NCBI GenBank assembly: GCA_913047625.1 | Contig: CAJWUJ010000013.1 | Span: forward strand, 1 to 40,015 | Length of the DNA: 40,015 bases | Direction of reading: 5' to 3' | Source of the DNA: an uncultured Dehalococcoidia bacterium | GTDB taxonomy: Bacteria; Chloroflexota; Dehalococcoidia; Lucifugimonadales; CAJWUJ01 | Part shown: positions 2,179 to 34,783 of the stretch, piece by piece | Layout: the number at the start of each line of letters is the position of its first letter | Numbering within the stretch: the first letter of the stretch is position 1 | The notes under the pieces: model-generated | Databases searched by the model: none | Seen by the model: only the letters and a program-made list of their open reading frames with translations | What the model was told of the DNA's origin: nothing | Made by a program: the position numbers and the translations under genes

Positions 2179-2778
2179 TTAAGTGATACAACGTGATTCG
2201 TTTTCTATGGCTTCCTGAAAGTGCAGGGTATCGACGGCTCCTATCAAGCGTTTTTTCCCGATTAAGGCGGCCGGTATGCCTTTGAATCCTAATATCTCTG
2301 CCTGGTAGTGTTGTTCAATTACTTTTGGTAAAAAGGAATGATTTTGGAGTGCTTTCTGCACTGACACGCGGGGCAGACCAACATTTAGTGCCAATCGTTC
2401 TAAAACTGTTGTGTTACCGATGTCTTCTTGATTTTCCCAATATGCGCTATAGACTGCTAGGTGAAAACTTTTTGCCAGATCGTATTGTTTGGATAGTTCT
2501 GTAAGTTCTAGGGCATATATCGTGTAAGGTATAAAGTACGGTGATTTTATTTTAAGACCAAGTTCCTCGGCTGCTTGGCTTAAAGCTGTGGGTAGTTGAC
2601 TGTAAGTACCCGATTTCAGTCGACCCTCTTTTGGGATATCTGGTTTAAGTATAAAGCTTCTTATATCAAGCTTTATGGAAAAAGATTTAGATAGTTCATT
2701 CAATCTGCCCAGACTGATAAAGCACCAAGGTCAGGTATAGTCATGCCATAATGTGATGGTTATTGGGTTTGATACCAT
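2179..2778 (-). CDS. Selenocysteine-containing DsbA-family thiol-disulfide oxidoreductase (TGA at 2731-2733 read as Sec)
   Basis: Read from ATG at 2778 through one in-frame TGA at 2733-2731, the frame gives 199 residues. It starts MVSNPITITLWHDYT, then TGA, then PWCFISLGRLNELSK. This is the first strand and active site of a DsbA/FrnE-like thioredoxin fold with the CPWC motif as U16-P-W-C19, so Sec replaces the attacking cysteine. Downstream are the helical insertion and the C-terminal GFKGIPAALIGKKRLIGA with the cis-proline at about P169, all intact. A SECIS-like hairpin follows the TGA and tRNA-Sec is encoded 3.3 kb away. If the TGA were a stop, translation could only begin at TTG 2703 and the protein would lack the first beta strand and active site. 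The Shine-Dalgarno before ATG 2778 is weak. The protein is probably cytoplasmic, since no signal peptide is visible. Its substrate is unknown. Confidence 0.9.
2695..2721 (-). promoter_or_regulatory. Bacterial SECIS-like hairpin inside the selenoprotein gene
   Basis: On the mRNA, bases 10-36 after the UGA fold as UUUAUCAGUCU, loop GGGC, AGAUUGA-(A bulge)-UGAA. That is an 11-bp stem with one bulged A and two G·U pairs. The loop G residues fall 21-23 nt after the UGA. Bacterial SECIS elements bound by SelB lie directly downstream of the UGA, with a short upper stem and a G near the start of the apical loop at about this distance. The fold was done by hand. Confidence 0.75.
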
Positions 2779-5507: not shown

Positions 5508-5709
5508 TTTGCTATGATTTCGATTTAAGGGGCTGTCGCTTTACTGCTATATTGAGCTGTGTCCCCTATATTGACGTTACACTTTGATGATCTGTACACT
5601 TAGCTGACAAGAAAAAGCAAATCTGAGTTATGTTGGTGCTTCAAATTCTGGTATTTCCGAAGGATGGATGCTTAGCAAAACTTGGTTTATATTTAAAGGA
5701 TGGTGTTTT

Positions 5710-6036
5710 GTGACAAAACCTATAGATGTTTCGGATAGCGATTTTGAAACCCAAGTCATTGAATCAGAATCTCCGGTTTTAGTTGATTTTTGGGCTGAGT
5801 GGTGTGGTCCCTGTAAAATGGTGGCTCCAGTGCTTGAAGAACTGGCAGAAGAATACAGTGGGCAAATAAAATTTACGAAGGTGGATGTCGATACGAATCA
5901 TGAGACAGCAATTCACTACGGTATTCGCAGTATTCCTACCTTGCTGGTATTTAAAGGCGGAAAACCGGTAGATCAATTAATTGGTGCAGTCCCAAGGGCC
6001 GAAATAAAAAAACGTTTGGATAATGCTCTGGGCTAG
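5710..6036 (+). CDS. trxA: Thioredoxin
   Basis: The 108-residue protein is the standard length for thioredoxin, with the active site FWAEWCGPCKMVAP (C32 and C35) and the cis-proline loop GIRSIPTLLVFKGGK. It is a cytoplasmic dithiol reductant. I chose GTG at 5710 because AAAGGA ends 9 bases upstream and the product then matches the family exactly. An ATG at 5668 would add 14 unconserved residues and has its AAGGA only three bases away. The gene lies 59 bp upstream of tRNA-Sec. It uses normal cysteine codons at both active-site positions, unlike the Sec-DsbA protein. Confidence 0.95.
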   Translation: MTKPIDVSDSDFETQVIESESPVLVDFWAEWCGPCKMVAPVLEELAEEYSGQIKFTKVDVDTNHETAIHYGIRSIPTLLVFKGGKPVDQLIGAVPRAEIKKRLDNALG

Positions 6037-6095: not shown

Positions 6096-6193
6096 GGGAG
6101 TGGAAGGGATCCGGTGGTTCTCTCGGTCTTCAAAACCGTTGTGGGGCTAGCTTCCTAGTCCCAGGTGGGTTCGACTCCCATGCACTCCCGCCA
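6096..6193 (+). tRNA. selC: tRNA-Sec (anticodon TCA)
   Basis: The 98-nt sequence aligns base for base in length with E. coli selC from the 5' end to the anticodon. The acceptor pairs 6096-6102 with 6183-6189 (7 pairs); an eighth position, 6103 against 6182, is G opposite G. The D arm has six mostly wobble pairs around loop CGGT. The anticodon TCA is at 6130-6132 in loop CTTCAAA. The long variable arm has 8 bp (6143-6150 with 6155-6162, loop CTTC). The T arm carries TTCGACT at 6170-6176, then discriminator G6190 and encoded CCA. This tRNA carries selenocysteine to UGA codons and depends on SelA, SelB and SelD, none of which is in the window. Confidence 0.95.
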
Positions 6194-33664: not shown

Positions 33665-33850
33665 CAAGTACAAACTATGGCAAGGTGAATTATAGTATTC
33701 TCAGGTAGGGTTGGTTATTCTTCATATGCATATAGGAAGATCAGTTTGCTAATGCTAGGGAATCAAAATCGGCAATAAGAATACTAATATGAGACCTTGA
33801 CACACAAGTTTTCCGTACATAGAATCGTGCCCATCTGAGGTAGTTTGCAA

Positions 33851-34783
33851 ATGTCGTATACCGTTGATCCGCAATATAAATGCCAAATACAAAAGCCTAA
33901 GGATTTCGACGCGTTTTGGAAAGGTGTAACTGACCAGCTGACGGATATTCCGTTGGATCCAGAAATCTATGCAGATCCGTTGAGGAGTAGTCCCACGGTC
34001 GAGGTATTTAGAGTGTTCTACAATAGTTTGGACAGCGTTAAGATTTCTGGTTGGTATGCTATTCCTAGGACACGATCATCAGCTATGCCAGGAGTATTAT
34101 TGTTTCCTGGTTACTTGAGTGATCCACCTATACCAAAAACATGGGCGGAAAAGGGATATGCCTGTTTGTCAGTTGCTCCCAGAGGGAAGATAGGTAGTAA
34201 GCAACAGTTTGATCCCGGGTATCCTGGGCTTCTCACGCATAATATCGTTGATCCAAATACATATACATATAGGGGTTTTTATGTTGATGCCTGGCGTGCG
34301 GTGGATTTCCTTATGAGCCGGTCAGAAATTGATGATAATCGTATTGGGGTCACGGGGATAAGCCAAGGAGGGGGTTTATCAATAACAACTGCTGCAATGA
34401 GACCAGAGGTTAGTGTAGCTTCTGTCGGGGCTCCGTATCTGGTAGGCTTTATGGATTCTTTGCTTCTAACAGACACCTATCCCTATGAAGAAATTAATGA
34501 CTATTTGAGGCTATATCCAGAAAGAAAAGAGCAAGTGGAATCTACCCTTGCGTATTTCGACGGGATTAACTTTGCCGATAAAATCACTTGCCCCATTATG
34601 GTTCATCTCGGTCTTCAGGATAATGTTTGTCCTCCCGAAACAGGCTTTCATTTGTTTCGTGAATTAAAGAGTCAACAAAAAGAATTGTTTGCGTATGATG
34701 GACATGGCCATGATGCAAACAGGAAAGAGCATCAGAAAAAAATAGAGGCATTCTTTGAGAAGTATATCGGTAGTGAAATCTAG
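33851..34783 (+). CDS. Acetyl xylan esterase/cephalosporin-C deacetylase-like hydrolase
   Basis: The 310-residue alpha/beta hydrolase belongs to the AXE1-like group: GWYAIPRTRS, LLFPGYLSDPP, SVAPRGKIGSKQQFDPGYPG and TYRGFYVDAWRAVDFL. The catalytic triad is visible as S171 in GISQGGG, D257 in LGLQDNVCPP and His at 285 or 287 in DGHGHDAN. It probably deacetylates sugars or another small ester. I chose ATG 33851 because GAGGT is nine bases upstream. A paralog without the triad follows 28 bp downstream. Confidence 0.9.
   Translation: MSYTVDPQYKCQIQKPKDFDAFWKGVTDQLTDIPLDPEIYADPLRSSPTVEVFRVFYNSLDSVKISGWYAIPRTRSSAMPGVLLFPGYLSDPPIPKTWAEKGYACLSVAPRGKIGSKQQFDPGYPGLLTHNIVDPNTYTYRGFYVDAWRAVDFLMSRSEIDDNRIGVTGISQGGGLSITTAAMRPEVSVASVGAPYLVGFMDSLLLTDTYPYEEINDYLRLYPERKEQVESTLAYFDGINFADKITCPIMVHLGLQDNVCPPETGFHLFRELKSQQKELFAYDGHGHDANRKEHQKKIEAFFEKYIGSEI

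Follow-up and report, generated by a model that had tools for sequence, protein, structure and literature searches.

The window, that is the whole stretch of 40,015 nucleotides analysed here, comes from an uncultured Dehalococcoidia bacterium and carries a minus-strand frame of 199 codons which runs from an ATG (2778-2776) to a TAA (2181-2179) and is interrupted by a single TGA (Table 1). The TGA lies in the context ITITLWHDYT-U-PWCF, at the first redox residue of a (U)-P-W-C motif. Direct reading of the frame confirms the preliminary description of this DNA, which had extended it to the ATG at 2778 with exactly one TGA at the first Cys position of a C-P-W-C motif. The same description held that conventional calling would give a 174-residue product devoid of its active site, and this is what the list of ATG/GTG/TTG open reading frames contains, the short ORF from TTG 2703 being the only entry for the locus. 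A run of 183 open codons is unlikely to arise by chance (p ~1e-5 with the gene's own base composition), and the Pfam DSBA match (residues 7-191, E 5.9e-21) spans the TGA. On the 5' side of the ATG the frame is open for 21 further codons before another TGA stop, and no ribosome-binding site before the ATG was evident by eye. No NCBIfam model scored over its cut-off for the selenoprotein (the best was NF041057, 17.2 bits against 190) and PADLOC gave no match. The correct reading restores an active site to a gene which ordinary ORF calling shortens, and the same miscalling would hit other genomes of the order.

Table 1. Features of the locus, in positions of the window.
Feature	Position	Strand	Basis or remark
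Selenoprotein gene, FrnE-like DsbA-fold oxidoreductase, 199 residues, Sec16 (U-P-W-C), predicted	2179..2778	-	Single internal TGA; Pfam DSBA; TGA homologues
TGA codon very probably read as selenocysteine, residue 16	2731..2733	-	Among the homologues read, 42 have TGA at this residue and 34 distinct ones have TGC/TGT
SECIS-like mRNA hairpin; seven pairs between nt 17-23 and 28-34 around a GGGC loop (nt 24-27)	2700..2717	-	Numbered with the U of UGA as 1
Short 174-aa ORF from TTG 2703, without the active site	2179..2703	-	Product of ordinary gene calling
Thioredoxin gene	5668-6036		TIGR01068 over cut-off
tRNA-Sec gene, anticodon TCA	6096..6193	+	ARAGORN; Rfam RF01852, 70.4 bits

The convergent neighbour of the selenoprotein gene is an Ldh_2 gene (1023-2171). 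Divergent from it lie several consecutive genes, whose matches are MaoC-like, FA_synthesis and short-chain dehydrogenase, together with the thioredoxin, and then the tRNA-Sec gene, which is 3,318 bases from the selenoprotein ATG. Five other read-through frames in the window were listed by a script and were unconvincing by eye. The script, which required one and only one TGA between two TAA/TAG stops, is no complete screen; it missed the selenoprotein gene itself because of the earlier in-frame TGA upstream. At 33797-34783 an in-frame TGA stands 13 codons past a possible start and ahead of a 312-aa ORF, which is probably chance upstream sequence.

The AlphaFold2 model of the protein, made from an alignment of 20, has a pLDDT of 95.4 and a pTM of 0.90, and in it residue 16 immediately precedes a helix (17-29). 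The best solved fold match is Deinococcus FrnE (E 8.6e-12, query TM 0.85), and the best sequence match is again Deinococcus FrnE (E 3.8e-8), whose CPWC is aligned on the TGA. Pro169 is invariant in the homologue alignment. Only 15 residues stand before the motif and therefore there is no room for a signal peptide. The C-terminal CxxxxC of many FrnE proteins is absent, and the window protein has a single further Cys after Cys19, at 181 residues from the Sec. In 21 of 30 genes the sequence from the Sec onward contains no such residue other than Sec and the Cys at +3; the other nine, the window's included, have one more Cys. The designation of the gene as a DsbA-family selenoprotein with a U-P-W-C active site, given in the preliminary description, is borne out by the Pfam DSBA match, the fold match to FrnE and the conserved TGA.

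It is unlikely, though worth weighing, that the product is a selenocysteine protein of another kind, akin to kappa-class glutathione transferase or 2-hydroxychromene-2-carboxylate isomerase and acting on small molecules instead of protein disulfides. Such folds do appear among the structural matches, ranked behind FrnE and SCO1869, and no DsbB- or DsbD-like protein was found among the nine neighbouring proteins scanned. Against this, FrnE ranks first by both sequence and fold, and U/C-P-W-C with the invariant Pro169 is the arrangement of a two-residue redox enzyme; kappa glutathione transferase and the isomerase use a single Ser. For a FrnE-like oxidoreductase, it could be possible that Sec16, which stands where helix 1 begins, attacks the disulfide of the substrate or another electrophile and that Cys19 resolves the intermediate via a selenenylsulfide. 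A cytosolic thiol donor, perhaps the thioredoxin encoded nearby or a small thiol, would then recharge the enzyme; an outside donor should do so because the CxxxxC is absent and Cys residues are few. The enzyme could thus help in oxidative-stress repair by reducing or isomerising disulfides, and would not be a periplasmic disulfide maker.

The reading of the TGA itself was followed through the homologues. A homologue exists in 112 of the 250 genomes of the same order, which by name we take to be SAR202, and 109 of these 112 have a TGA-containing match among the matches listed. Of the other three, G150 has a Cys form and G044 and G058 are outside the matches listed. By hand count, 135 of the 150 matches listed, all from the order, contain exactly one TGA and 15 contain none; weaker matches lie outside these 150, and the position of the TGA was read in 42 copies. 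These 42, the window's among them, are all of the 30 loci and 12 of 20 further regions picked to include forms without TGA, and in every one (42/42) the TGA stands at the U of UPWC or UPFC. The remaining eight regions have TGC in four (CPHC in L037-L039, CPWC in L040) and CPHS in L042 and L043, and in L041 and L044 the motif pattern had no match.

Cys forms were also found by an alignment scan with DYICPWC as its pattern, so that it was limited to Cys forms. It gave 36 loci from named genomes, from which L087, L088, L091, L095 and L098 were left out of the reading, and all 31 loci read have TGC or TGT at the site. After removal of L072, a duplicate of L040, there are 34 distinct Cys forms; they belong to Chloroflexota, Thermodesulfobacteriota, Armatimonadota, Actinomycetota and others. 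The two kinds of homologue which the preliminary description had proposed to look for, with Cys aligned at the TGA and with TGA at the same residue, thus both exist. The window protein is divergent, with 26-41% identity to the 21 other aligned homologues, and the alignment is conserved on both sides of the TGA. A single-sequence scan of the genome contigs gave no relative, and the family-level homologue search covered the bacterium's own genome. On plasmids, tblastn gave 186 records, all below 60% identity; among the five listed, four are annotated as "DsbA family oxidoreductase" and one is unannotated. Taken from the alignments, the UGA is very probably a conserved sense codon, for selenocysteine, at the catalytic position.

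The genome to which the window belongs (1.55 Mb, 91% complete) codes for SelA (528 bits, contig C9), SelB (304.5 bits, contig C1) and SelD (362.8 bits, contig C16). All three genes, whose presence had been left to be checked, are therefore there, in addition to the tRNA-Sec 3.3 kb from the selenoprotein gene. Nor did the homologues or the genome bring up any of the outcomes that the preliminary description had named as refuting it. SelD (G000:C16:10874-11797; L103) has one in-frame TGA near its N-terminus, in SSAG-U-AAKF, and is therefore probably a second selenoprotein. SelA, SelB and SelD are all over cut-off in 175 of the 250 genomes, as sorted by hand, which points to wide use of selenocysteine across this Chloroflexota order. 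Among the 216 genomes with two or more sel genes 104 have the homologue, as compared to 8 of the 34 with fewer (Fisher p 0.009, uncorrected for kinship and incompleteness); the E-values for this test were sorted by hand, and the below-cut-off numbers agree with the search tallies.

Three genomes which bear the homologue, G054, G198 and G150, have none of SelA, SelB and SelD over cut-off. G054 (74% complete) and G198 (56% complete) have the TGA and a tRNA-SeC. Only one of the three proteins is over cut-off in the homologue-bearing genomes G021, G152, G197, G212 and G215. In G212 the best tRNA-Sec match is a tRNA-Ser, yet its Sec-type gene has TGA, and we attribute the missing match to the 78% completeness of this genome. 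A separate group, G075-G088 (genera g43 and g44; small genomes, 55-95% complete), has neither SelA, SelB or SelD over cut-off nor the homologue, an apparent loss of selenocysteine use.

G150 (SHYT01000012.1; Dehalococcoidia, deep Lake Baikal), with a 91% complete genome, provides a control within the order. The codon at the site is TGC. None of SelA, SelB and SelD was over cut-off in this genome and no tRNA-Sec was found; ARAGORN identifies the best RF01852 match (50.7 bits) as a tRNA-Ser. G148 and G149, which belong to the same family, have TGA together with SelA, SelB, SelD and a tRNA-Sec (73.5 and 70.3 bits, respectively). The proteins of G148, G149 and G150 group together in the tree with support 100/95. 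The order thus offers natural Sec/Cys pairs in sister genomes.

A hairpin after the UGA, which the preliminary description had suggested looking for, was found in the set of 42 genes, and the stem in the window pairs at 7 of 7 positions and closes a GGGC loop, in line with the bacterial SECIS type, in which a small apical loop contains a G. A stem of 6/7 or 7/8 pairs at this offset is present in 34 of the 42 TGA genes; within the same genes, 123 of 6816 control positions have one. Compared with synonymous shuffles the mean z at the UGA is -1.63, with 21 of the 42 genes below -1.64, while six control offsets give means of -0.07 to -0.33 with 2 to 5 of 42 below that value. Eleven genes share the window's register; nine of them have C-G and two have U-A at the pair 21-30, so that both sides have changed. 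Raw folding energies average -14.4 at the UGA and come to the same level 90-105 bases downstream (-14.0, -14.4), and therefore only the shuffle-corrected figure singles out the UGA. One locus, L045, has no such stem. RNAalifold on the 42 ungapped sequences returned no structure, in our reading because there are two hairpin registers. The folding energy of the window segment did not stand out, since its z of -0.89 is not significant and 20% of the synonymous shuffles are at least as stable. The hairpin is convincing for the set and not for the window alone.

Ordinary termination at the TGA, or an error in the sequence there, which would leave a pseudogene or a 174-aa protein, is very improbable. 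The ORF listing does yield the 174-aa frame, and the window's own hairpin is not significant when taken alone, but a stop or an error would not be expected to recur at the same residue in all 42 TGA genes read, with TGA-containing matches in 109 of 112 genomes among the matches listed, conservation on both sides of the codon and the Sec machinery in the genome. General reassignment of UGA in the lineage, for example to Trp, so that the residue is not Sec, would also let the in-frame TGA be read through but is more improbable still, since TGA terminates 4 of the 36 main ORFs counted in the window and UGA is hence still a stop, homologues have Cys at the site, and a tRNA-Sec with anticodon TCA is present. 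We thus regard with high confidence the gene as one predicted to code for a cytosolic FrnE-like oxidoreductase of the DsbA fold, whose first redox residue would be a selenocysteine inserted at the UGA by SelB and Sec-tRNA(Sec) with the aid of the hairpin.

In a tree of 76 rows, built without L041-L044 and with L072 removed as a duplicate of L040, the Sec/Cys label changes four times as compared to a mean of 25 in shuffles. The window gene, on a long branch (1.61), is placed with support 96/87 beside a clade of UPFC (TGA) and CPHC (TGC) forms, inside the Sec clade. The tree tool flags the window gene (L001), L045 and L096 as long branches; the joining of L045 with L096 may be false, and one of the four changes depends on this possible long-branch artefact. 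Sec seems to have been changed to Cys at least twice within the order, in a tree whose root is not fixed. CPHC or CPHS paralogues occur in G207, G206, G212, G217 and G219 (L037, L038, L039, L042 and L043), and each of these genomes also lists a TGA-containing copy. We lean towards the view that the Sec form of FrnE is an old and widespread state in the order and that single lineages swapped Sec for Cys. One such swap would have gone along with the loss of all the Sec machinery (G150), and one or more others would have struck a gene duplicate (UPFC to CPHC) where the genome keeps a Sec copy. If this is true, the order would be a ready set of matched Sec and Cys enzymes for asking what selenium buys.

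DsbA-like selenoproteins with UxxC have been in print since 2005. In the available text of these sources, nine sequences assigned to COG2761 were described from the Sargasso Sea (PMC1088965), 63 sequences of "DsbA 1", more abundant in marine samples, were counted in the GOS data (PMC2398784), 45 DsbA-like selenoproteins were reported in 41 organisms (PMC5029168), and the type is covered in two reviews (PMC9312934, PMC13188914). Three selenoproteins in Chloroflexi and four DsbA-like ones appear in PMC1794560, whose available text does not link the two, and deep-sea Chloroflexi have Sec formate dehydrogenases (PMC5736913); because of these two reports selenoproteins in Chloroflexi are not new. 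The preliminary description was right to suspect that the family may not be wholly new, DsbA-like UxxC selenoproteins being already published (PMC1088965, PMC2398784, PMC1794560, PMC5029168, PMC9312934, PMC13188914). In the literature searched on SAR202, Dehalococcoidia and Chloroflexi with selenoproteins, as far as its available text goes, no Sec DsbA in Chloroflexi was found, and no account of the gene's wide presence in the order or of its Sec/Cys switches. As DsbA-like UxxC selenoproteins are already published, the window gene is a divergent addition to a known type of enzyme.

Form 1 of the DsbA-like selenoproteins, of which PMC13188914 names NIP15863.1, shares with the window gene the Pfam DSBA domain (PF01323), UxxC, a stem-loop after the UGA and Cys homologues. 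The likeness rests on PF01323, UxxC and the resemblance to FrnE, form 1 being compared by its description. Chloroflexi are not named as hosts in the available portions of PMC1088965, PMC2398784 and PMC5029168, and the window copy is divergent. Exported or periplasmic DsbA has in common with the window protein the thioredoxin fold with a helical insert and Pfam DSBA; the window protein differs in having no room for a signal peptide and a Sec in the motif, and the fold search places FrnE ahead of DsbA structures. FrnE of Deinococcus radiodurans (PDB 5cnw, 5coh, 5xwh) has the same fold, a CPWC that falls on the UPWC and no signal peptide, but Cys where the window protein would have Sec. According to the available part of PMC8945050 it is proposed to reduce disulfides in the cytoplasm, and its mutant shows sensitivity to cadmium and diamide. 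Its C-terminal CxxxxC, proposed there to regenerate the enzyme, is lacking in the window protein, as it also is in the FrnE proteins from Streptomyces roseofulvus and Deinococcus maricopensis (PMC8945050).
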